Part shown: piece by piece, positions 2,915-14,802 of the stretch
How positions within the stretch are numbered: the stretch's first letter is position 1
Layout of the letters: each line of letters opens with the position of its first letter
Source: Singulisphaera sp.
GTDB lineage: Bacteria; Planctomycetota; Planctomycetia; Isosphaerales; Isosphaeraceae
Direction: 5' to 3'
DNA length: 47,141 nt
Assembly (NCBI GenBank): GCA_027451445.1
Contig: DAIDJG010000389.1
Location: forward strand, 1 to 47,141
The notes under the pieces: generated by a model
Seen by the model: the letters and a program-made list of their open reading frames with translations, nothing else
Databases searched by the model: none
What the model was told of the DNA's origin: nothing
Program-made: the position numbers and the translations under genes

Positions 2915-4177
2915 TTAGACCGAGGACTCCAGGCGATAGAGCACCTCGCCCGCGCGTTCCACGACTAAAATCCCTTCATCTTCGCGGCCTCGATACTCGT
3001 CGAGATCGACCGTGGCAGGGTCCCGATAGCCAAGATTGATCTTGCGGCAAACGTCGGACGAAAGAGCTGTGGCGAGTGAGAGATTGACGTCCGGCACCTC
3101 AACGCCGTTGTCGTACCGGCCGGTTCCTTTGACGTGGGTCGAGTGAGCGAGCACACCCCAGGGCACATGCTTGAACTTATCGAACTGCTTCGTGAAGTAG
3201 GGGAGGACGTGATACCCCACTTCCTCGATCCAGTGACCGTGGGTCTTCGAGATCTCCGCCAGGTGCGGTCCGTAGATCACCAGGCTACCGCCCGAATCGA
3301 CCACGGGCTCGAGCTTGTACATGCATTTGCCGGCCGTCCACAATTCCGGATACATCTCGGGACAGACCGAAATCACTGTGTGGAACGGTCGGGCCACGCG
3401 CTTGATGTGAACCTGGGCGGAATGCCGCGCGGCTTGCTCGTAAGCGGCCTCCGGGGTCCCGAAGTAAAGGCCGTGGAGGCCCTCCTTGGTGACCACGAGC
3501 GAAAAGCAATGCTTGGGCATGTCGATCATCGCCGCGCAATGGTCGACGACCGCCCGTACCGGCGTGTAGTGCGTGCCGATCACGCGTCGATTGGTAATCA
3601 GCGCGCCAAGCCAGTGGAACATATCAATGATTTCCCGACCGGCGATTCCCGGAAAGAAATACTTGTTGCCCCCGGAGAACCCGACGACCTCATGCGGGAA
3701 CGTCGGACCGACGACGATCGCGTGATCGTAATCGAAAAGTGTGCTGTTGATTTTGACGTCGATCGGGCCGTCGAGGGCGCCCTCGGAAAGTGACCGGAGG
3801 GTTTCCGAGGGGATCGTACCGATCGTGCGGAGCCGTTTCGGGTCGTTCCACGCGTGATTCAGGAATTGCGTCTTCGGCAGGTTCGTCTCACGGAACGCAG
3901 CGTCGATGCCCAGAAACCGGTAGATCCGCTCGATGGGCATCGGCCGGTGGGTGCCGAGAGCGATGAGGACGTCGAGTTTCTCGACACGAGGGCCCACCGC
4001 GTCGTTCAGGACGCGGAGCATCAGTCCGATTGGCGACGTACGCGTGTCATCGGGGACGATCAGAAGAACGCGCCGGCCGTTGATGTCGAGCGTTTGCGCC
4101 GCGTTGTTGACGATTTGGCGCACTTCGTCTTCGGAGAGGAGCCGCTTGTCGGTATCTGCCACGCTTTCAGTCGGCAT
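2915..4177 (-). CDS. LarA-type nickel-pincer racemase/epimerase (DUF2088)
   Basis: A 420-residue protein of the lactate racemase (LarA) superfamily, which racemises or epimerises 2-hydroxy acids through a nickel-pincer nucleotide cofactor. The core residues are present: D43-x-x-R46 in PDDTR, H77 in GTHR, H162 in FPHEVVGFSGG, K172 in GGNKYFFPGIAG and H188. The spacings H162-K172 (10) and K172-H188 (16) equal those I recall for H174, K184 and H200 of LarA, so the enzyme should bind the cofactor. GGNK in place of the usual GGRK is a small deviation. The ATG at 4177 lies 5 bp after the lactonase stop, so it is translated as the last gene of the sugar-acid operon. The LarB/C/E maturation genes are not in the window. 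The substrate is more likely a sugar acid than lactate because of the neighbours (inference). Confidence 0.88.
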   Translation of the reverse strand: MPTESVADTDKRLLSEDEVRQIVNNAAQTLDINGRRVLLIVPDDTRTSPIGLMLRVLNDAVGPRVEKLDVLIALGTHRPMPIERIYRFLGIDAAFRETNLPKTQFLNHAWNDPKRLRTIGTIPSETLRSLSEGALDGPIDVKINSTLFDYDHAIVVGPTFPHEVVGFSGGNKYFFPGIAGREIIDMFHWLGALITNRRVIGTHYTPVRAVVDHCAAMIDMPKHCFSLVVTKEGLHGLYFGTPEAAYEQAARHSAQVHIKRVARPFHTVISVCPEMYPELWTAGKCMYKLEPVVDSGGSLVIYGPHLAEISKTHGHWIEEVGYHVLPYFTKQFDKFKHVPWGVLAHSTHVKGTGRYDNGVEVPDVNLSLATALSSDVCRKINLGYRDPATVDLDEYRGREDEGILVVERAGEVLYRLESSV

Positions 4178-4182
4178 GTGAA

Positions 4183-5046
4183 TTAATCCTGCTCGCGTGA
4201 GTTCGCGTGCAATCGATAGAACTGGGTCGCCACATCGCCAAAAATCAGGGTGCGCTCGCGCTCGCTCAAAGCCCCCAGCAGATCCCGCAGTGCGCCGATC
4301 ACCTGGCCATACGTACCGGCCAGTTCGCAAACGGGCCAGTCGGATCCGAACATCAAACGCTCGGGGCCGAACGCTTCCAGCGCCGTTTGGACGTAGGGCT
4401 TCAACTCGTCGACGCTCCAGTTCCGCCAGTCCGCCTCGGTGATCATTCCCGAAAGCTTGCAATACACATTCGGAAACGCAGCCGCAGCGCGAAAATCGGG
4501 TAGCCAATCGTCAACGCGGTGGTCTTTGATGTGTGGCTTCGCCAGGTGGTCGATGACCATCGGCAGATCGGGGAATCGGGTGGCGAGTTGAGGGACGTGC
4601 CGCAGGTGCTTGACGTAGAAGAGCAGGTCGAAGGGGACCTGGTGTTTTTCCAGCACCTTGAGCCCGCGCAGTACGTCGTCGCGGACGATAAAGTTGTCAT
4701 CGGGCTCGTCCTGCGTGACGTGCCGGATGCCGACGAACTTGGGGTGAGCTTTGAACTCCAGAAGCTGCTCCTCGCACGCCGGACTCGCCAGGTCGACCCA
4801 GCCGACAACCCCGGCGATGAAATCGTGCTGTTCGGCGAGGCCCAGCACCCAGCGGTTTTCGCGGATGTCGTGCTGAGTCTGCACGAAGATCGTTCGATCG
4901 ACGCCGGCGGCACGGATGAGGGGTTCGAGGTGTTCCGGCAGGAAATCGCGGCGGATCGGTGCGTTCGCGGGCGCATCGAGCCAGCCGTAGTTGAACGGCT
5001 GGCTGAGCTGCCAGAAGTGCTGGTGTGCGTCGATGGTCAGGGCCAT
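4183..5046 (-). CDS. Amidohydrolase-2 family sugar lactonase (L-fuconolactonase-like)
   Basis: A 287-residue TIM-barrel metal hydrolase of the amidohydrolase-2 (COG3618) family. It starts MALTIDAHQHFW, so the metal-ligand H-x-H motif is H8/H10. Further barrel motifs are MVIDHLAKPH and the late MFGSDWPV carrying the catalytic Asp. Relatives hydrolyse L-fucono-, L-rhamnono- and L-galactono-lactones to the aldonic acids. Its place between a FucU-type mutarotase and a LarA homologue, in an operon with an aldose dehydrogenase, fits hydrolysis of the lactone that dehydrogenase makes. The length is typical. The ATG at 5046 is 6 bp from the preceding stop. The exact lactone cannot be read from sequence. 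Confidence 0.87.
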   Translation of the reverse strand: MALTIDAHQHFWQLSQPFNYGWLDAPANAPIRRDFLPEHLEPLIRAAGVDRTIFVQTQHDIRENRWVLGLAEQHDFIAGVVGWVDLASPACEEQLLEFKAHPKFVGIRHVTQDEPDDNFIVRDDVLRGLKVLEKHQVPFDLLFYVKHLRHVPQLATRFPDLPMVIDHLAKPHIKDHRVDDWLPDFRAAAAFPNVYCKLSGMITEADWRNWSVDELKPYVQTALEAFGPERLMFGSDWPVCELAGTYGQVIGALRDLLGALSERERTLIFGDVATQFYRLHANSREQD

Positions 5047-5052
5047 GGGGAG

Positions 5053-5499
5053 TCAGTCCATGCGCACGCCGACCGTGAGCAGCACGTTGGCAAAGCGCTG
5101 CTGGTCGGCGGTCTGAATGGTCAGCACGTGATCCGGGGTCGCGACGGCCTCGTAGAAGGCCCACTTTTCGATCGCCTCGAGCTTCAAGGAGATCCCCGCG
5201 TTTTTGATGACGGCGCGGTACTGGTCCCAGACGGGTGGGTCTTCCGTCAACGCGTAGGGGCCTTCCGTCTCATAGCCCATCGTGTTGATCGCCTCGACGG
5301 GGACGGCCGAAAGCAGGGCCTGGAGAACCTGCGTGCACGAGACGACGCCCGGCATCAGGTTCATGCAGACGAGCTCGGCGTTCGGTCCTTTCTTCGAGGA
5401 GGCCGGGTAGTTGCCGTCCGCAACCAAGATCTTGGCGTGATGGCCGGCCCGGCCGATGATTTCGTTGATCTTGGGATGAATGAGCGTGTGCTTGAGCAT
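5053..5499 (-). CDS. fucU: RbsD/FucU family sugar mutarotase
   Basis: A 148-residue cytoplasmic protein of the RbsD/FucU fold, which interconverts alpha and beta anomers of free sugars (L-fucose for FucU, ribose for RbsD). The N-terminal block MLKHTLIHPKINEIIGRAGH followed by ILVADGNYP is the family signature, and the C-terminal TIQTADQQRFANVLLTVGV closes the domain. I chose the ATG at 5499 rather than a longer reading to 5532, because the family begins at this ML-H-P block and AGAGGA lies upstream. It sits 17 bp after the isomerase gene. L-fucose and L-galactose share ring configuration, so either could be its substrate. The FucU subtype is judged by eye and is less certain than the family. 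Confidence 0.85.
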   Translation of the reverse strand: MLKHTLIHPKINEIIGRAGHHAKILVADGNYPASSKKGPNAELVCMNLMPGVVSCTQVLQALLSAVPVEAINTMGYETEGPYALTEDPPVWDQYRAVIKNAGISLKLEAIEKWAFYEAVATPDHVLTIQTADQQRFANVLLTVGVRMD

Positions 5500-5516
5500 G
5501 CGGGGAAACGGTCCTC

Positions 5517-6338
5517 TCACCTGGGGAAACACGCGCGAACCATCGTGATGGTCTGCTGTGCCGCAGCGTCCGAGTCGGGGTACGGGAACGCCTCGGCCGA
5601 AGCGAAGCGGTCGTAGCCGATCGCATGGAGCGCCGCGACGATCGGTCCGTAGTCCATGTGGCCCAACCCGGCAGGCCGGCGGTTGGAGTCAACGAAATGC
5701 AAGTGGCCAATGTAGCCCGCACCCGCCATGATCGCCGCCGGGATCCTGGCCTCTTCGATGTTCATGTGAAAGAGGTCGGCGAGGAGTTTGACGTTGGACG
5801 TAGAGAGCGTTTTGAGGAGCGTCACGCCGTCGGCGACGGTATTGATAAAGTTCGTCTCGTACCGATTGAGCGGTTCATAGAGCAGGGGAGCCCCATACTG
5901 AACCGCATACTCGCCCAGTGCGTTGAGCGCCTCGGAAAGATAAGCAAAGCCTGTTTCACGATCGACGCCGTCGCCCCACCGCCCTTGCATGGAGCCGATG
6001 ATCGCCGGCGCTCCAAACCGCCCCGCCAGATCAATGATCGAACGAACGAAGGCCTGGGCCTTCGAACGCACGTTCGCGTCGGGGTGTGTCAGCGTCAATC
6101 GCTGCACGACCCAGCCGGCTCCGGTGCCGATCGCGCCGAGCTTGAGGCCGTGGACGGTCAGCAGATGTTGCAAGAGCGCGGGATCCACAGCATCGGCCGA
6201 AGGTGGGAAGACCTCGACCGCATCGAACCCAAGCTCAGCCGCCTTGCGGCAACCGGCTTCCAGGTCGTCCCAGAAGACGAACGGGCCGCCGCGTGCTTGC
6301 GGGACCAGGCTGATCGTCACGCACGATTGAATGGGCAT
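5517..6338 (-). CDS. Sugar isomerase/epimerase, AP-endonuclease-2-type TIM barrel
   Basis: A 273-residue xylose-isomerase-like TIM barrel (COG1082 type). Recognisable pieces are AAELGFDAVEVFPP near the N-terminus, YEPLNRYETNFINT with the metal-binding Glu, LLADLFHMNIEE, GHLHFVDSNRRPAGLGHMDYG and ASAEAFPYPDSD. These are the Glu/Asp/His/Glu metal ligands of hydroxypyruvate isomerase and ketose 3-epimerase relatives. The true start is the ATG at 6338, preceded by AGGATT; the frame runs further upstream into the SDR gene but that part is not protein-like. It is the one enzyme in the operon I cannot place with a specific step. A 3-epimerase or a ketose/aldose isomerase feeding the pathway are the obvious options. 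Confidence 0.85.
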   Translation of the reverse strand: MPIQSCVTISLVPQARGGPFVFWDDLEAGCRKAAELGFDAVEVFPPSADAVDPALLQHLLTVHGLKLGAIGTGAGWVVQRLTLTHPDANVRSKAQAFVRSIIDLAGRFGAPAIIGSMQGRWGDGVDRETGFAYLSEALNALGEYAVQYGAPLLYEPLNRYETNFINTVADGVTLLKTLSTSNVKLLADLFHMNIEEARIPAAIMAGAGYIGHLHFVDSNRRPAGLGHMDYGPIVAALHAIGYDRFASAEAFPYPDSDAAAQQTITMVRACFPR

Positions 6339-6400
6339 GAATCCTGTCCAGGATCGAAATATTCGGAATGTCGAGACGCCACCGCGTTGGCTTCTCCGGA

Positions 6401-7183
6401 TCAGAGCCGCATCGCCGTGAAACCGCCGTCGACGTAATACGACGCCCCTGTGATGAAGCTGCCCGCGTTCTTCGACAGCATCAGCAGGGTTGCTCCTACG
6501 AGCTCGTGCGGCTCGCCGAAGCGGTCCATTGGCGTTTGCGCCATGATCTTTTCCACTCGCTTGGCGTCGAGAATCTTGCGGTTCTGCTCGGCGGGGAAGA
6601 ACCCCGGACAAAGCGCGTTGACTCGCACACCCATGGGCGCCAGCTCGCGCGCAACATTCTGCGTGAGGTTGACGACGGCCGCCTTCGACGCGGAGTAGGC
6701 GAAGACGCGCGACAGGGGCAAATGCGACGAAACACTTGCGATGTTCACGATCGCGCCGCCGCCGTGCTCGGCCATGTGCTTGCCGAAGATCTGGCAGCCC
6801 CAGTGCACGGCTTTCAGGTTGCTGTCGATCACGCGATCCCAGTCTTCGTCTTTCACCTCGAAATACGCGCTGGCGCTGTTCACACCGGCGCCATTGATGA
6901 GCATGTCGACGCGCCCCTGGGTTTCGAGCACATGGGCCAGCAACTGCTCGATCGATGCTCGCTGGGTCACGTCGACCGAGGCATAAGCGGCTCGCCCGCC
7001 CGCGGCTTCGATCGCCTGAACCCGAGTCGCCCCTTTCTCCGGGTCTCGTCCCGCGACAATGGCCATTGCCCCCGCGCGCGCCAGGCCTTCGCAAAGCGCA
7101 CCGCCGAGGACTCCCGTCCCGCCGATCACCACGGCCACCTGGCCCGACAGCCCGAACAGTTCTTCCAAGTAACTCTGCGACAT
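6401..7183 (-). CDS. Short-chain dehydrogenase/reductase, D-fructuronate reductase-like
   Basis: A 260-residue classical SDR. The nucleotide-binding motif is GGTGVLGG (21-28), the NNAG equivalent is INGAG (96-100), and the catalytic residues are S150, Y163 and K167 in the YSASK block. The C-terminus ASYYVDGGFTAM is typical of the 250-residue reductases. SDRs with this YLEELF-GL-G N-terminus are often annotated as D-mannonate oxidoreductase. Beside a UxaE-type epimerase, reduction of D-fructuronate to D-mannonate is the natural assignment (inference). I chose ATG 7183, with GAGGTG 8 bp upstream, over the TTG two codons earlier. Confidence 0.88.
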   Translation of the reverse strand: MSQSYLEELFGLSGQVAVVIGGTGVLGGALCEGLARAGAMAIVAGRDPEKGATRVQAIEAAGGRAAYASVDVTQRASIEQLLAHVLETQGRVDMLINGAGVNSASAYFEVKDEDWDRVIDSNLKAVHWGCQIFGKHMAEHGGGAIVNIASVSSHLPLSRVFAYSASKAAVVNLTQNVARELAPMGVRVNALCPGFFPAEQNRKILDAKRVEKIMAQTPMDRFGEPHELVGATLLMLSKNAGSFITGASYYVDGGFTAMRL

Positions 7184-7215
7184 CAGCAATTCACCTCGTA
7201 TTCATCGGTTTCTGC

Positions 7216-8505
7216 TTACAACCCTACGCGCAGGGCGTCCAGGTGACGGCCGAAGTGGTCCTCCAGCACCTCCTCATACGTCGCCGGGTGTTGCTCCAAC
7301 ACCTGCCGGACGGCGGGGCCGAATTCTGGATGCGTCAGGGTCGAGCCGAAGGTGCAGTGCAAGATCTGGCGGCCCGGCTTCGTAAACCCTTTCCCTTGTG
7401 GAACCTCGGACCAGAGCTCCAGGTAATGACGTTCCAGCTCCGTCGTGCTGGAGACTTCGGAGGCCGGCGGCGCCGAGGCGAGTGTCGCGGAAACGTGGTA
7501 CGTGGCCTTGTCGGTGTCGTAGCGGCTACGGGCGAAATCGACGATCCGGCGGAAGAGCGCTTCGTCGTGGCGTGCGACAACCCGCAGCGCTTCGAGATAG
7601 CTCGTGCCCGCAGTCTTGACGTGGAATTGTCCTTTCGTTGCACGGGCGAGCGCCGGGTACATCGAGAGCTTATCGGAGCCCGAGTGCAGGCTCAGTTTGT
7701 ACGGACCCAGCGACTCGGCGATCGCGGCGTGATCGCGGAGTGATGCCTCGAGCGCGGCGACATCGCCCTTGTAATCGATGCCTTTCTCGAAGTCGCCAAT
7801 GTATCGCGGGGCCAGGCTGACCAGCTTCATACCGCGTGCCAGGCACTGATCGGCGATGATGTAATGCTCACCAAGCGTTGTCGGCTGCTCGGTCTCATCG
7901 ACGCTGAGCTCAATCTCGTAGTCGCGGCCCAGGGTCTTGTGGACCTTTTCGATGTGGTCGGCGAGTTTCAATGCGTGGTTCAGCGCACGGCCGTATTTCA
8001 CCGCGGCCCGCAAGCATGCCTCTTCATCGAGCCGGATGCCGGTTCCTGTCGCCAGTGTGACCGTTTTCCCCCGATACTTATCGAACCAGTCAATCTCCGC
8101 CGCGACCGCGTTGTACTTCTGCCGGAGCGTCGCCTCGTCGTAGTTGTCGGCGTGGGCATCGACGTGCGCGGAGGGATCGATGGTGAAAAACGTGAAGCCG
8201 GCGGCCGCGGTGACGTCGACGTCTTCCGGCGTTTTCAAGTGGTCCGCATCTGCACCCGTTTTGCCGGTCCAGCCAGCCTGACGCATACCCGAGAGGGCGT
8301 CGTCCATGACCTTCTGGGCCGACCGGTTTGTCCTTGCCATCTCGCGGATCGATTGCTGGGGGTAGATGGGCTCGATCCCTGCTCCCGAGCGCCGCATCGC
8401 CGCGACATGACCGGGGGTCGCCAGGCCGATGCGGTCGCCGAACCCGAAACTTGGGCTCAGGCCCAGGGTGACACAGGGTGACTGCCCCTTCGAATGCTCC
8501 GCCAT
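7216..8505 (-). CDS. uxaE: Tagaturonate/fructuronate epimerase family (UxaE-like)
   Basis: A 429-residue protein resembling UxaE, the D-tagaturonate 3-epimerase first described in Thermotoga, which makes D-fructuronate without the tagaturonate-reduction route of Escherichia coli. Supporting stretches are GFGDRIGLATPGH near the N-terminus, AAGFTFFTIDPSAHVD, IELSVDETEQPTT, LVSLAPRYIGDFEKGIDY and YKLSLHSGSDKLSMYP, the last three holding the acidic and His residues expected of a metal epimerase. The start is ATG 8505 with GGGAG upstream; longer readings run into the dehydrogenase gene. It lies between an LgoD-like dehydrogenase, which would supply tagaturonate, and an SDR that could reduce fructuronate. 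Family identity is by recognition, so a deoxy-sugar analogue as substrate remains possible. Confidence 0.8.
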   Translation of the reverse strand: MAEHSKGQSPCVTLGLSPSFGFGDRIGLATPGHVAAMRRSGAGIEPIYPQQSIREMARTNRSAQKVMDDALSGMRQAGWTGKTGADADHLKTPEDVDVTAAAGFTFFTIDPSAHVDAHADNYDEATLRQKYNAVAAEIDWFDKYRGKTVTLATGTGIRLDEEACLRAAVKYGRALNHALKLADHIEKVHKTLGRDYEIELSVDETEQPTTLGEHYIIADQCLARGMKLVSLAPRYIGDFEKGIDYKGDVAALEASLRDHAAIAESLGPYKLSLHSGSDKLSMYPALARATKGQFHVKTAGTSYLEALRVVARHDEALFRRIVDFARSRYDTDKATYHVSATLASAPPASEVSSTTELERHYLELWSEVPQGKGFTKPGRQILHCTFGSTLTHPEFGPAVRQVLEQHPATYEEVLEDHFGRHLDALRVGL

Positions 8506-8546
8506 CGCTTGTGTGCTCCCTTTTCCTCGACGCGGTTCGTCCGACT

Positions 8547-9569
8547 TCAATCCAGTTCCACGATGGCCTTGATCACGCCGGTTTCGGGCTTCGTGTACGA
8601 CGGGAAGACCTCGGGCAGCTCGTCGAACGGCGACCGGTGCGTGATCCACGGCTTCGTGTCGATCTTGCCGTCCTCGATCAGTTGAATGATGCGCGTGAAG
8701 TCCTCGGGCAAAGCGTTGCGCGAGCAGAGCAGGGTGCCTTCTGGCTTGTGGAACACCGGGTGGCGAAAGTGAACCTCTTCCGTGGTGATCCCCACGTAAA
8801 CAAGCCGGCCGCCGCCGGGAGCGACGAGTCCGAACGCATTCGACATTGAGACGTTGTTGCCCGTCGCGTCGATCACGACGTCGGGGAGGTGCCCGTCGGT
8901 CAGGTTGCGCAGGTCCTTCTCGGTATTCTCAGAGAGCTTGACCGTGTGTTGAACCCCCATCACGCGCCGGCAGAAATCGAGCCGTTGCTCGTTGACGTCG
9001 AGCATGATCGTCTTCGCCCCGGAGAGCTTGACGAACTCCAGGGTTGCCAGTCCGATCGGTCCTGCCCCGATGATAAGGCAGGCTTCTTCGGGCCGAGGTG
9101 CACCGCGGTTGACGGCGTGGCAGCCGATCGCCAGGGTTTCAACCAGTGCGAGCTGATCGAAGGCCAGCTTCTTCGACGGGTGCAGCTTCCGAGCGGGAAG
9201 GAGGAAGTTGGGCCGCATGCCTCCGTCGCGGTGGACGCCGAGCACTTCGAGTTTTTCGCAGCAATTGGGGTAGCCGCGACGACTCGCGTAGCTGTTGGGA
9301 TCGTTGATGTAGGGTTCGACGGAGCAGCGGTCGCCCGGCCGGACGTTCGTAACGTCGGCGCCGACGTCGACGACTTCTACGCCGAGCTCGTGGCCCGGGA
9401 TTCTCGGATAACTGAAGAACGGCATCTTGCCGAGATAGCCGCTGATGTCCGTGCCGCAGATCCCAATGCGGTGCACGCGCACCAGGGCCTCGCCCGGCGC
9501 GGGTTTCGCGGGTGCGTCGGTGTCGATCTTCTTGAAGTGCTTGGGGGATTCCAGCAGCAAGGCTTTCAT
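8547..9569 (-). CDS. Zinc-type dehydrogenase, L-galactonate 5-dehydrogenase (LgoD)-like
   Basis: A 340-residue medium-chain dehydrogenase. The catalytic zinc ligands are C38 in ICGTD and H60-E61 in GHE; the Rossmann motif is IGAGPIG. The stretches PFFSYPR-x2-GHE, NCCEKLEVLGVHRDGG and SRNALPEDF recall LgoD, which oxidises L-galactonate to D-tagaturonate. The structural-zinc lobe is altered: positions that normally carry four cysteines (spacing 3, 3, 8) are D90, S93, S96 and C104, so the structural zinc is probably absent. The start is ATG 9569 with GGAG 9 bp upstream. It precedes the UxaE-like gene by 41 bp. L-fuconate or L-gulonate are alternative substrates. Confidence 0.86.
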   Translation of the reverse strand: MKALLLESPKHFKKIDTDAPAKPAPGEALVRVHRIGICGTDISGYLGKMPFFSYPRIPGHELGVEVVDVGADVTNVRPGDRCSVEPYINDPNSYASRRGYPNCCEKLEVLGVHRDGGMRPNFLLPARKLHPSKKLAFDQLALVETLAIGCHAVNRGAPRPEEACLIIGAGPIGLATLEFVKLSGAKTIMLDVNEQRLDFCRRVMGVQHTVKLSENTEKDLRNLTDGHLPDVVIDATGNNVSMSNAFGLVAPGGGRLVYVGITTEEVHFRHPVFHKPEGTLLCSRNALPEDFTRIIQLIEDGKIDTKPWITHRSPFDELPEVFPSYTKPETGVIKAIVELD

Positions 9570-9597
9570 GGTGGGTCGGCTCCGGAGCACTTTGGAT

Positions 9598-10542
9598 TCA
9601 GGGGCGGGGCGTGTCGTTGTTTTCCGGCCGCCCTTCGATGTAGAACCAGTTGTGAATCGGACGAAGGATGTCGAGCACCTCCTTCAGGAGGGCCTGGTCG
9701 ATCGGCTGCTCCGACCACTCGACCCACTTCCGTACGTTTTCGGGGTTCGCCGAGCCGACGATGCACGTCGTCATATCTTCGTTGGCGATCGAGTATTGCA
9801 GGGCCAGTTGGGCGATGTCCACCCCTCGTGCCGCGCAGTGATCCGAGGCTTGCTTGCAGATCGCACGGACTTCGGGAGTCGCCTTGTGCCAGGGGGGCAG
9901 GGGGGCGTTCGTCAGCAGTCGCGCCGAAAAGGGCGCAGCGTTCATGATACCGACCCCTTTGCCCTGGAGGTAGGGGACGAGGTCGGCAAACATCGTGTTC
10001 TGAAGTGTGTAGTGATTGTACGAGAGCACGACGTCGAGCGGCGCGCGGTCCAATACGTAGCGGAACATGTTCATGGGGTAGCCGCTGACGCCGATGAAGC
10101 GGACTTTCCCCTGTTCTTGCACCTTGCGCAAGGCGGGCAGGGTCTCGTCGACGATCTGGGCCATGTCGACGAACTCGATGTCGTGGCAGAGAATGATGTC
10201 GAGGTAGTCGACGCCCATGCGCATGAGGCTGACATCCACACTTTCAACGACGCGCTTGGCTGAGAAGTCGAAGTGCGCGGGGGCATAGCGGCCGAGCTTG
10301 GTGCCGAGAAGGTACCGCTCCCTTGGTATGCCGCGTAGTGCGACGCCAAGGAGACACTCGCTCATCCCACGGCCATAGTAGGGCGACGTGTCGATGAAGT
10401 TCATGCCGAGGTCGAGTGCAACATGGACCGAGCGAACGGCTTCGTTCAGGTCGACGGTCCGGAACTCCTGTCCGAGCGACGAGGCCCCAAACGTGAGCCA
10501 TGACAACTCCAAGCCGGTCCGGCCCAGAGGACGAAATCGCAT
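9598..10542 (-). CDS. Aldo/keto reductase, L-fucose/L-galactose dehydrogenase-like
   Basis: A 314-residue AKR barrel with the full catalytic tetrad D51, Y56, K82 and H120 (DTSPYYG, GTKLG, LCHD). The N-terminus RFRPLGRTGLELSWLTFGAS is characteristic of D-threo-aldose 1-dehydrogenases and plant-type L-galactose dehydrogenases. These oxidise L-fucose, L-galactose or D-arabinose at C1 to the lactone. The start is ATG 10542, seven bases after GGGAG. It is the first of the eight sugar genes, with 115 bp to the large secreted cytochrome gene upstream on the same strand. With the mutarotase and lactonase in the same operon, the role as pathway entry dehydrogenase is well supported; the choice of sugar is not. 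Confidence 0.87.
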   Translation of the reverse strand: MRFRPLGRTGLELSWLTFGASSLGQEFRTVDLNEAVRSVHVALDLGMNFIDTSPYYGRGMSECLLGVALRGIPRERYLLGTKLGRYAPAHFDFSAKRVVESVDVSLMRMGVDYLDIILCHDIEFVDMAQIVDETLPALRKVQEQGKVRFIGVSGYPMNMFRYVLDRAPLDVVLSYNHYTLQNTMFADLVPYLQGKGVGIMNAAPFSARLLTNAPLPPWHKATPEVRAICKQASDHCAARGVDIAQLALQYSIANEDMTTCIVGSANPENVRKWVEWSEQPIDQALLKEVLDILRPIHNWFYIEGRPENNDTPRP

Positions 10543-10656
10543 AAAAACGCTCCCGAGCGCCGAGGCTCGCGACGAAACTCTGAGCCTGGAAAGTCTTCCC
10601 ATCCTAGCGTCTAAGCGTCGCGACGCCACCCGGTTCCGGGACAAATCGGGATCGGG

Positions 10657-13600
10657 TCAGTCGTTTCGGATCCTTGCCCCTGGGGTCGCGAGCTCGTTGA
10701 AGCGACCCACCGGTTCATGGGCGGCCCAGGCGATCCCTCGGAGGATGAGCAGCCGAAACAGGGGATCGTCGAACGTCCAGGTGTAATGGCCGGGAATTGA
10801 GCAGAACACGCGGCCCTTTCCTTGCTCCCGGGTCCAAAGCAACGGCCGCGGCTGCCCCTCTTCGTCGCACGTGGCGAGCACGTCGACACGAGCCGGGTCG
10901 CCAACCAGGGCCCAGTAACTCTCGTCCACGAACTTCACCCCATCGAGACCGGCCGTGATGGGGTTGGGGTTGCCCTTCGGCAGGCTCAAGGTCAGCGGCC
11001 CGTGGCGGAAGCGCGAGGCGCCGTCGCGCCAGGCGAGCCCGATGTGCGAGGCGAAGGCCTCGACGGCACCGCGACCATTGACGGCGTAGTGCAGATAGAC
11101 CATCCCGCCCCCGCGTTCCAGTAAGGCGTCGAGTGCGGGCCCGCGCTCGGCGTTCCAGCCCGGATTGGCGGAATACCAGACCAGGACGTCGGCCTTGGCG
11201 AAGTCCTCATCCGAAGGCCAGCCGGATGCCGTCGTCACAGTCACCCCTTCCGCCATCGACAGCAATTTCGACCACCGCTCGCGCCAGAGGGGGTAGTCGT
11301 GCTCGTCGATGCCGTGATCCTTCGGTCCGTCGACCAACACGATCCGCAAGGGCCGGCCACCAGGAGTCGCAGGAGGGCCTGCTTTCAGGGCGGTCTCGAT
11401 CTCGCCCCGGGTTCGAGCCGGGGGGACCTCCGGCCGATGAACCGGTGCGGGAGCAAACTCAGGAGCGAGCAAGAACGTGAGCAGATCTTTCAATGCCGCC
11501 GCATCAAGTGTCTCGGTCAGTCCCTTGGGCATCGTCGAGACCGCGAGTGGTTTCATCTCTTCTACATCGGTTCGCGCGATCTGGGAGACCCGGCCTTGTG
11601 TGTCGCCCACGAGTAAATGTTTTCCCACGGTCCGAACCGTGCCCGTGAGAACCTGTCCGTTCGTCAGCGCGAGGTTGTAACTGATGTAGTCCGGGTGGAT
11701 CGCGAAGCTGGGGTCGCGGATGTCGCGGAGAACGGATGTGACGTCGCGCTGGGAGAGGTTCGAAAGGTCGGGACCGATCTTTCCGCCCTCGCCGCGAACC
11801 GTGTGGCACTGCGAACAGCGGGCGGTTTCACTCAAGAAGAGCTTGCGACCTTTTGACCAACTCCCTCCCGCCAGCTCTTCGGGCGTATGGATCGTTGTTG
11901 GCGATGATTCGGAGTCCACCCGTGCCCAGGGCACGAAACAACGCGTTGGGGGCCACGCGCGCGGCCGAGGATCTTCGTTCGTGTGCCACGACAAACCGAG
12001 CTGGACCGGTTCAGGCCCGGTCGTCAGTTCGATCTCGATCGGCATCCATCGCGGGCTGTTCGGCGGCCGGGTCACGACCACGCTTCGATTCGCGCCCGCT
12101 TCGACGACCTTCTTGTCTTCGTTGAGCACGCGAACGCGAAACGGTCCGCCCGCGGCAAAAACCAGGACAACCTCCTCAGGCGGCAACTGGTCATTGACCT
12201 GAATGCCCGGTTGAACGGCGGGACGGAGCATCTGGCTCACGTCAAACCTCGCGGCGAGCCTGAGGTGGCCCGGTTTTGCCAACAGACCCCAGAGACGGTC
12301 GTGCTCCGCGCTTCCCGCAGTCAGAGTGCGCGCGACGGAGAGGTCCATATGCGGCAGCCAACCGTCCCAGCGCTCGGTTCGATCGTCCGAAACCCAGGCC
12401 GCGTGAAGGCCGGTCAGATCGTAGGCGAGATCGATGCCGGGATGTTGGGACAGCCCGTGTTCATTTGCTCTCAAGTCTCCAGAATCGGAGAGCGACACAG
12501 CATACGCCACCGCGCTTGTCTGTGGACCGACGGTCAGGACCAACGTCCGCCGATCGGGAGTCACACCGCTCGAATGGACCTTCAGATCGAAACGAGGTGC
12601 AGCCAGTTGCGCGGCGACCGCCGCGTAACCGGGCCGGAGCGTCTCAAAGCGATCCCCAGCGGCGACGTACTTGCCATACGTGATCTCCGCCTTCTTGATG
12701 AGCGCGGCCCACTGGTCCGGTGACACGGGGCGGTCGAACGCGACGAACGTCTCTGTCGGCCCGCCGGGCCAGGCCAGGACGGGCTGAGGAAGCGAGTGAT
12801 CGACATAGCGGACCTTGTACAGTGTTCCTTGACCGTTCGGACCGCTCCCCCAGTCCGGGCCGCCGCTATGTGCCGCAAGCGTGAGCGCTCCGTCCGGTCC
12901 CACGCACGCGTCGACGAGCAGCATCGACGTGCACGCCAGAAGCGTCGTCTTCGCGACGTAACCCTCGGCCGTTTTGGCGAGCTTCGTCCGGTAGAGCTTC
13001 CCTCGCGAGTAGCCGCACACGAGCGCATCGTCGCCCCATTCTCTTGGGCCGAACGTCGGTCCGCCGTTGATTGGGACGTTGAAGTTCAGACCACAAGTCG
13101 ACTGGTGTTGCGGCGTGTAGTCGAAGACCGATGGCTCGTCGATCACGACGGGCAGATATCTGGAATGCCGTGGCGGAAAGCCATAATGCCGGCCTGGTTG
13201 GATGTGGAGCAGTTCGTCAAACGGATTCCCATTGGGGAGCCACGTTGCCCCTTCCTGGTCGGTGGCGAACAGGTCGCCGAGGCGGTTGAACGCCAGCGAG
13301 ACCGGGAACCGGATGCCGGTGGCGATGACCTGGCGACTTGAGAAATCGGGCGCGACTCGCTCGATCGTTGCCCCTTCGCCCTTGACGTTGTAATGAGGGC
13401 GGCCGGACGCATCGAGCAGGTAGGGGTTAGTGAAGTCGCGAGTGCCGATCCCAAAATACACGCTACCATCCGCGCCGAGCGCAACCCCGAGTGCATCAAC
13501 GCCGTGGCCGATCTCGGTCCAGCCCTGCGCGATGATAATCTCACGGTCTGCACGGTCGTCGCCGTCAATGTCCACGATCAGCGAGCACTTCCCCTTCGAG

Positions 13601-14802
13601 GCGACGAACATACCGTTCCCGAAACGGTAACCCCGCGGCGTGAGCGCCATGCCGATCGGTGCGCGAATCCGGCCCTGGTTGTCCCAAAAGATCTCCGCGT
13701 GGTCCTCCTGGCCGTCGCCGTCGGTGTCAGAAAGAACGTAGACGTCGCCGTTGTAGGCCAGGGCGAGGAGCTTGCCGTCAGGCCGGTAGCGGAGGTTATT
13801 GATGTTCGAGAGCTTGAGGGGAAGCTGCCGCACCTCGAACCCGGGAACGAGGAACTGGACCGGCGGCGGGGCTTTGACCGTAACCAGCAGTTTCTCCCCC
13901 GTGCGTGTCCGCGCCACCGATTGCTCCAGGCCAGGGATCTTGGCGTGGAGGTACTGGCGAACCGCGGCGGATTCGGCCGGTTTGAGCGCACGATCGTAGA
14001 GAAGGATCTCGGCAATTTCGCCGTCGAAGAACCCGCGTGCTGAAGGGGGCTCGCTGTCGTTGCTATAGAAACGGGCACCGACCGTGAGTTCATCAAGGCG
14101 AAGGGCTTCGGAAGAGCGTTCGCGATGCCCTTGCGCCGATCCGTCGACGGTCAACTCGACGCCTGAGGGGCCATCGCTGGCGCGCACCTCGATCACGTGA
14201 AAATGCCCCATCGGATGGGACGAGCTCATCACGTTGCGCGCCCCGACGAAGCCGATGCCTTCGGGGTTGAGCGACTCGAAATTCTGCGAGGCCCACGGTC
14301 CGAGGTCGATTGTGAAGCCGGTCAGATAGTCGTTGCGGCCGGTCGCATTCGCGGCGACGAGACTGGAAAAGCCGCCGGGGTTCGCGCCGGGCGCGGCGAC
14401 GATGAACACGGTGAAGCCGGCGACGGAACGGCCCAGGCCGTTCAGCTCGTAGTGGTCGTCTTTGCCGTCGAAGCGAAAGATTGACTTTCCGTTTTGAGTA
14501 TGAAATGTCGGCTGGGCAGCGCGGGAGCGCTGAACGACATGATGGCGATGGCCGGAGCTGTCGAACCAAACGCCCGACGGGTTTCGATCCTGGAGTGGGG
14601 CAAGTCCTTCGGCCGCCCTGGCCTCTTGCTGCCGAGACGCGTCGAGCCAGAGGACGAGTCCAGAAGTGACGCTGAGATTGCGATCGGCCCACGGAGGCAC
14701 ATCAGCGCGAATTCGCGAGGTGGCTCCGGTCAAGATCAGGCCGGCGAGAACGCAGCACCGGAGGGAAGAATGCCCTATCGAGGCGTCTTGAGGGCGGTGC
14801 AT
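10657..14802 (-). CDS. Secreted LamG / dehydrogenase-like propeller / cytochrome c / ThuA fusion protein
   Basis: A 1381-residue exported protein with a hydrophobic signal peptide (about 15-33). A LamG/concanavalin-type jelly roll comes first (about 45-290: LVLWLDASRQQ, FRFDGKDDHYEL, GEIAEILLYDRALKPAE). A membrane-bound-dehydrogenase-type beta-propeller follows (about 320-700: LRYRPDGKLLALAYNGDVYVL, DIDGDDRADREIIIAQG). A class I cytochrome c has CSQCH at 996-1000. The end is a ThuA-like domain (about 1150-1370: LRIVLVDGPKDHG, FCSIPGHYTWTFDDP). Such modular cytochromes are typical of Planctomycetes and sit in the periplasm. Lying directly upstream of the sugar-acid operon on the same strand, it may handle sugar outside the cytoplasm; that link is inference. 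Confidence 0.85.
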   Translation of the reverse strand: MHRPQDASIGHSSLRCCVLAGLILTGATSRIRADVPPWADRNLSVTSGLVLWLDASRQQEARAAEGLAPLQDRNPSGVWFDSSGHRHHVVQRSRAAQPTFHTQNGKSIFRFDGKDDHYELNGLGRSVAGFTVFIVAAPGANPGGFSSLVAANATGRNDYLTGFTIDLGPWASQNFESLNPEGIGFVGARNVMSSSHPMGHFHVIEVRASDGPSGVELTVDGSAQGHRERSSEALRLDELTVGARFYSNDSEPPSARGFFDGEIAEILLYDRALKPAESAAVRQYLHAKIPGLEQSVARTRTGEKLLVTVKAPPPVQFLVPGFEVRQLPLKLSNINNLRYRPDGKLLALAYNGDVYVLSDTDGDGQEDHAEIFWDNQGRIRAPIGMALTPRGYRFGNGMFVASKGKCSLIVDIDGDDRADREIIIAQGWTEIGHGVDALGVALGADGSVYFGIGTRDFTNPYLLDASGRPHYNVKGEGATIERVAPDFSSRQVIATGIRFPVSLAFNRLGDLFATDQEGATWLPNGNPFDELLHIQPGRHYGFPPRHSRYLPVVIDEPSVFDYTPQHQSTCGLNFNVPINGGPTFGPREWGDDALVCGYSRGKLYRTKLAKTAEGYVAKTTLLACTSMLLVDACVGPDGALTLAAHSGGPDWGSGPNGQGTLYKVRYVDHSLPQPVLAWPGGPTETFVAFDRPVSPDQWAALIKKAEITYGKYVAAGDRFETLRPGYAAVAAQLAAPRFDLKVHSSGVTPDRRTLVLTVGPQTSAVAYAVSLSDSGDLRANEHGLSQHPGIDLAYDLTGLHAAWVSDDRTERWDGWLPHMDLSVARTLTAGSAEHDRLWGLLAKPGHLRLAARFDVSQMLRPAVQPGIQVNDQLPPEEVVLVFAAGGPFRVRVLNEDKKVVEAGANRSVVVTRPPNSPRWMPIEIELTTGPEPVQLGLSWHTNEDPRPRAWPPTRCFVPWARVDSESSPTTIHTPEELAGGSWSKGRKLFLSETARCSQCHTVRGEGGKIGPDLSNLSQRDVTSVLRDIRDPSFAIHPDYISYNLALTNGQVLTGTVRTVGKHLLVGDTQGRVSQIARTDVEEMKPLAVSTMPKGLTETLDAAALKDLLTFLLAPEFAPAPVHRPEVPPARTRGEIETALKAGPPATPGGRPLRIVLVDGPKDHGIDEHDYPLWRERWSKLLSMAEGVTVTTASGWPSDEDFAKADVLVWYSANPGWNAERGPALDALLERGGGMVYLHYAVNGRGAVEAFASHIGLAWRDGASRFRHGPLTLSLPKGNPNPITAGLDGVKFVDESYWALVGDPARVDVLATCDEEGQPRPLLWTREQGKGRVFCSIPGHYTWTFDDPLFRLLILRGIAWAAHEPVGRFNELATPGARIRND

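Follow-up and report, generated by a model that had tools for sequence, protein, structure and literature searches.

A predicted GntE-type nickel-pincer hexonate 2-epimerase at the end of a putative L-galactose operon in Singulisphaera sp. (Planctomycetota)

Residues of the substrate pocket predict the substrate across the LarA superfamily: at LarA positions 175, 176, 358 and 359, lactate racemases carry F, F, W and E/Q, whereas gluconate 2-epimerases carry E, V, A and H (PMC11770544). GntE2 of Thermotoga maritima has been assayed as a D-mannonate/D-gluconate epimerase with a kcat of 197 per s and a KM of 17 mM, while for GntE1 of C. glutamicum the KM for mannonate is 120 mM, so that its native hexonate might be a different one (PMC7583248). 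According to the passage of PMC6978723 that reports the proposal, Rodionova and co-workers placed the T. maritima enzyme between mannonate derived from uronates and 6-phosphogluconate. Among the pathways for rare sugars, a dual L-glucose/L-galactose route encoded by lguABCDEF, lguG and lguH was described in 2025 for Luteolibacter sp. LG18, in which LguA and LguD each serve the L-glucose as well as the L-galactose series and LguG converts 5-keto-L-gluconate, derived from L-glucose, into D-tagaturonate (PMC12632266).

The window analysed here is a stretch of 47,141 nucleotides from a Singulisphaera assembly of 10.9 Mb (622 contigs, 96% complete, 4.8% contamination). It contains a LarA homologue as an intact ORF of 420 codons on the minus strand (2915–4177; ATG at 4177–4175, stop at 2917–2915). 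Upstream, the frame continues without a stop as far as a TTG at 4507; the ATG coincides with the starts of homologues and lies 5 bp past the stop of the lactonase gene. With 77.5 bits on Pfam PF09861 (Lar_N; cut-off 23.3), the product is a full-length LarA-superfamily protein. The translated ORF contained all six core residues listed in the original prediction (D43, R46, H77, H162, K172 and H188), with exactly that numbering, and also K284, which was absent from that list. R46, K172 and H188 are the equivalents of the NPN-binding residues of LarA (R75, K184 and H200), and D43, H77, H162 and K284 those of its catalytic residues (D72, H108, H174 and K298). The alpha-11 residue is W280.

In the pocket, the codons of the catalytic H162 and of E163 and V164 occupy 3686–3694 on the minus strand (LarA H174, F175 and F176; signature from PMC11770544), and those of A344 and H345, aligned to LarA W358 and T359, occupy 3143–3148 on the same strand. 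E163, V164, A344 and H345 thus form the exact E-V-A-H signature of the GntE enzymes, which was kept in 96 of 116 alignment rows. The best solved sequence match in the PDB was GntE2 (4nar), covering the full length with E 1.8e-61 and 212 bits in a single-sequence search; a profile search of the PDB gave 394 bits for 4nar versus 67 for the next entry. The AF2 model of the protein (pLDDT 91.7) likewise matched 4nar best (Z 48.5, 2.1 A, 401 residues), followed by lactate racemases (Z 32–35) and malate racemase (Z 28). In a tree of 56 rows, which left out the GntE1, Mar and HGR reference sequences, all rows bearing the hexonate signature, 51 in number, formed one clade with GntE2 (SH-aLRT 97). The homologue and its sister-genome orthologue joined a Fibrobacteria sequence (support 100) inside a large multi-phylum clade, and lactate-racemase-like rows, including the second LarA homologue of the same genome, fell outside the GntE2 clade. 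This placement beside GntE2 and apart from sequences resembling lactate racemases agrees with the original prediction. Membership of the LarAH18 equivalog (NF052594, putative hexonate epimerase) was considered and rejected: this was the best NCBIfam model for the homologue, yet the score of 176 bits lies below the cut-off of 500, and the proven GntE2 also falls short with 193 bits, so that the model does not separate the two.

These features suggested that the 420-residue protein, a predicted NPN-dependent hexonate C2-epimerase, extends the known GntE family by one new member. It shares with GntE2 (LarAH20; Q9WYS3, 4NAR) 35% identity, the same fold, all NPN-binding and catalytic residues and an E-x-A-H pocket, but differs from it in two substitutions (S156 to V164, N348 to G341) and in belonging to a separate sub-clade. 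Uronate-catabolism neighbours and the reaction order UxaE, reductase, GntE are also common to both; however, the GntE2 locus is a hexuronate/gluconate-kinase locus, whereas the present gene is joined to an L-galactose operon. LarAH18 and LarAH19/GntE1 have a hexonate-type pocket signature in common with the homologue. The lactate racemase LarA and Isosphaera Sar (5HUQ, 9EIA) share its fold, cofactor residues and mechanism, but differ in pocket residues and substrate class, with Z values of only 32–35. No relative of LarA was found among viral contigs, where all six pattern matches were unrelated.

The LarA homologue is the last gene of a nine-gene run on the minus strand (2915–14802), in which every gap measures 5–54 bp. 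The first gene (10657–14802) encodes a large, secreted-looking protein of 1381 aa that carries DUF7133, a motif of cytochrome c and, at its C-terminus, a ThuA domain, and which may act on sugar outside the cytoplasm. After 54 bp follows an aldo-keto reductase (AKR; 9598–10602) with the tetrad D71, Y76, K102 and H140; its top five PDB matches were L-galactose dehydrogenases (254–349 bits), the next family reaching 119, and it is LguA-like. The gene at 8547–9590 encodes a putative Zn-dependent hexonate 5-dehydrogenase of the LguD/LgoD/RspB type (NF007489, 169 bits, below the cut-off of 376; best PDB match 4ilk RspB), its nearest relatives, RspB/PRK10083, being presumably hexonate 5-dehydrogenases. 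It is followed by the tagaturonate/fructuronate epimerase UxaE (7216–8511; PF16257, 401 bits; PDB UxaE entries, 268–303 bits) and by an SDR resembling D-mannonate oxidoreductase (fructuronate reductase) (6401–7189), for which NF006132 was the best model with 245 bits, below its cut-off of 281. An IolO/LguG-like 5-keto-L-gluconate 4-epimerase (5517–6350, start tentative) reached 230 bits on NF041099 (below the cut-off of 300) and 154 bits against TM0416 in the PDB. Next come an RbsD/FucU-type mutarotase (5053–5493, start tentative, as the frame is open to 5532; PF05025, 98.5 bits) and a COG3618-type amidohydrolase resembling L-fucono/L-galactono-lactonases (4183–5046; NF052480, 249 bits, below the cut-off of 400). 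The closest solved match of this lactonase is 4dlf (177 bits), which we take to be an L-fuconolactonase structure. The eight metabolic genes recur in identical order in another species of the genus, with 78%–90% protein identity, an arrangement far beyond chance; among the matches listed, it was found in these two genomes of one genus.

From the gene, its residues, fold match, family placement, cofactor genes and genomic context, the following substrates, directions and reactions are predicted. The AKR would oxidise L-galactose to the lactone, which the lactonase would open to L-galactonate; the Zn dehydrogenase would convert L-galactonate into D-tagaturonate, UxaE would epimerise this to D-fructuronate, the SDR would reduce D-fructuronate to D-mannonate, and the LarA homologue would invert D-mannonate to D-gluconate. 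The FucU-type protein would equilibrate the sugar anomers, and the IolO/LguG-like enzyme would bring in L-gluconate, formed from L-glucose, at D-tagaturonate. L-Galactose alone does not explain the presence of the latter gene, which suggests that the operon handles L-glucose or L-gluconate too, entering at D-tagaturonate; the operon probably also serves a route from L-glucose to D-gluconate. By the family mechanism, K172 would tether the NPN, R46 would hold it and H188 would ligate the nickel, while H77 or H162 would take the proton of the C2 hydroxyl as the C2 hydride passes to the NPN; the resulting 2-keto intermediate would then be re-reduced on the opposite face. The genes for making the cofactor, whose presence agrees with the original prediction, were all found in the genome on three contigs other than that of the operon, each above its curated cut-off (larB, 274 bits; larC, 480 bits; larE type, 333 bits).

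The upper half of this scheme resembles the Luteolibacter L-glucose/L-galactose route and the lower half the hexuronate catabolism of T. maritima. With LG18, the operon appears to share an LguA-like AKR, an LguD-like dehydrogenase, an LguG/IolO-like epimerase, an RbsD-type mutarotase and D-tagaturonate as the common intermediate, the Lgu likeness being assigned from family and PDB matches and from the roles given in PMC12632266. In LG18, however, LguC reduces tagaturonate to D-altronate, which LguB dehydrates to KDG, whereas the operon has UxaE, the SDR and the nickel epimerase instead and, unlike LG18, a lactonase. Neither the tagaturonate reductase family of LguC nor the altronate dehydratase family of LguB was present among the operon proteins when these were compared with Pfam and NCBIfam families. 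Among the open-access papers searched, none combining both halves was found; as far as these papers show, the pathway would join the two known halves in a new way.

The neighbourhoods of orthologues in other genomes were examined in the best 80 of 574 candidate loci, whose orthologues share 50%–57% identity; they are the closest relatives and not a random sample, and the loci are not independent observations. On the same strand within 5 kb of the orthologue, 6-phosphogluconate dehydrogenase (6PGDH) occurred in 31 of these 80 loci (in 30 of them within 1.5 kb), an SDR in 33, both in 22, UxaE in eight and the glucuronate isomerase UxaC in seven. Fidelibacterota, Balneolota, Ignavibacteriota, KSB1, Calditrichota, Armatimonadota, Verrucomicrobiota, Chloroflexota, Elusimicrobiota and Hydrogenedentota were among the phyla with such neighbours. 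As a control, none of 18 planctomycete loci centred on UxaE and lacking LarA contained 6PGDH. Identities checked on examples were clear for 6PGDH (759 bits), UxaC (539 bits) and ManD (695 bits), and the example SDR lay just over the cut-off for D-mannonate oxidoreductase; as SDRs form a very large family, their adjacency was weighted below that of 6PGDH. In Chthoniobacter flavus, for example, LarA lies next to an SDR. The overall pattern supports a role for the enzyme in linking uronate-derived mannonate to 6-phosphogluconate. Planctomycetota were an exception, with only one of their 30 orthologues near 6PGDH in the same best 80 of 574 loci. In Pirellulaceae-like genomes the LarA gene usually stands apart. 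L-Galactose operons there comprise AKR, Zn dehydrogenase, IolO and UxaE, in some cases also FucU and lactonase, but neither LarA nor the SDR, LarA lying elsewhere in these genomes. One Pirellulaceae-like genome has what is apparently another L-galactose arrangement with LarA: at L056:9237–14919, LarA is followed or preceded directly by an aldehyde dehydrogenase, a distant UxaE and an AKR resembling L-galactose dehydrogenase (66%), all in one row. An SNF2 helicase is encoded next to LarA here as well as in several Pirellulaceae, but was not taken as conserved synteny, given identities of about 28%–31% and the other orientation.

The original prediction that the enzyme converts D-mannonate into D-gluconate gained support from the E-V-A-H signature, from the GntE2 fold match (Z 48.5 vs. 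at most 35) and from the clustering of orthologues with UxaE/UxaC, SDR and 6PGDH in many phyla, although the activity is putative. We therefore consider it likely that the homologue is a GntE-type NPN enzyme which inverts C2 of D-mannonate and so ends the L-galactose operon at D-gluconate. Several observations argue against this assignment, namely a ManD-subgroup enolase that could serve as the mannonate exit, the lack of a canonical gluconokinase among the genes found in the genome, the separation of most Planctomycetota orthologues from SDR, UxaE and 6PGDH, and the presence of G341 where GntE2 has N348. GntE1 also shows that family members may have another native hexonate (PMC7583248), and a GntE-type 2-epimerase acting on a pair such as L-galactonate/L-talonate or L-gluconate/L-mannonate would broaden the range of sugars accepted by the operon. 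The KM of 120 mM of GntE1 for mannonate (PMC7583248) is in line with such a substrate, as are the position of the gene beside a lactonase expected to liberate an aldonate of the L-series and the restriction of the exact arrangement to two genomes among the matches listed. We nevertheless regard this alternative as unlikely: in other phyla the orthologues have UxaC/UxaE, SDR and 6PGDH as neighbours, L-galactose enzymes were not detected beside orthologues except at L056 and L160, and the pocket signature is the same in 96 of 116 alignment rows. The orthologue context without L-galactose enzymes points to D-mannonate as the usual substrate of the clade.

A role after phosphorylation appears less probable still. 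In this case a PfkB-family kinase would first act on mannonate, and the homologue would turn 6-phospho-D-mannonate into 6-phospho-D-gluconate and feed 6PGDH directly. In its favour, LarA, PfkB and 6PGDH are directly adjacent in several Fidelibacterota loci, a search of the window genome turned up no canonical gluconokinase, and a 6-phosphomannonate 2-epimerase activity is known from Lactobacillus suebicus, where no gene has been assigned to it (PMC6978723). However, GntE2 has an almost identical signature and converts unphosphorylated mannonate (PMC7583248), the homologue revealed no phosphate site, and the PfkB of this genome is most like KDG kinase and adjoins a glucose-dehydrogenase-like gene. 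The wider proposal that this LarA clade, with its frequent 6PGDH neighbours, consists of 6-phosphomannonate 2-epimerases, or of enzymes accepting the free and the phosphorylated acid alike, in partnership with a mannonate/gluconate kinase of the PfkB family, seems to us equally doubtful; if true, nickel-pincer chemistry would operate on phosphorylated sugar acids at the entry to the pentose phosphate pathway. A racemase of lactate or another short-chain 2-hydroxy acid that chances to sit in a sugar operon is highly improbable. Superfamily membership is all that favours it, whereas the pocket has E, V, A and H in place of F, F, W and E/Q, GntE2 leads the solved matches by a wide margin, the tree sets the homologue apart from lactate-racemase-like rows and the sugar-acid context is conserved; a lactate racemase was thus rejected on pocket residues, fold ranking and phylogeny.

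If the D-mannonate 2-epimerase assignment is correct, the breakdown of L-galactose, and probably also of L-glucose, would proceed through a series of unphosphorylated acids, with a nickel-pincer enzyme as the final step, and would yield D-gluconate instead of 2-keto-3-deoxygluconate. D-Mannonate/D-gluconate epimerisation would then be assigned to a multi-phylum GntE sub-clade found repeatedly beside 6PGDH, and nickel would become a candidate requirement for the use of uronates and rare sugars in these bacteria.

The pathway also points to a missing gluconokinase. The original prediction had D-gluconate as the end point, which is supported, and a gluconate kinase as the next step, for which no canonical enzyme was found in the genome. 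GntK had no match above the cut-off, nor had the FGGY gluconokinase, the four FGGY kinases of the genome being best assigned as xylulokinase, glycerol kinase, rhamnulokinase and ribulokinase; both canonical types were thus discarded. Entry of gluconate into the pentose phosphate pathway consequently rests on a PfkB kinase (C295:6319–7395) as a candidate non-canonical gluconokinase, or gluconate takes another route. This kinase is 76% identical to one directly beside LarA in Fidelibacterota, but its best solved match is a KDG kinase, which leaves the gluconokinase role hypothetical. The PfkB gene adjoins a glucose-dehydrogenase-like gene (PF16912, 166 bits), the pair spanning L237:6319–8563 (minus strand, C295), and a glucose dehydrogenase would also make gluconate or its lactone. 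The 6-phosphogluconate formed by the candidate kinase would pass to the 6PGDH encoded on contig C113 (771 bits on TIGR00873). Next to this 6PGDH lies a gene for a conserved HAD-like protein of about 290 aa (L238:9037–9900, minus strand, C113) with a weak PF13419 match and no NCBIfam match. In the best 80 of 574 loci, this HAD-like gene was near LarA in 17 (e.g., L101:2017–2883 and L108:8774–9658) and PfkB in nine, with both together in only two, as if the two proteins could substitute for one another.

On the mannonate side, the mannonate dehydratase UxuA was not found in the window genome by a search that picked up those of T. maritima and E. coli, which leaves mannonate without its usual UxuA exit. 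Another mannonate dehydratase could exist, since the genome encodes a ManD-subgroup protein of the enolase superfamily (L082:260–1708, minus strand, C396) that scored 427 bits, below the cut-off of 550. This protein has an N-terminal signal-like stretch and looks exported. KDPG aldolase was found in three relatives and not seen in the window genome, a weak result from a single query against an incomplete assembly. In an Ignavibacteriales locus (L108:5884–12258), a ManD/KDPG aldolase branch for mannonate lies beside a LarA/6PGDH branch.
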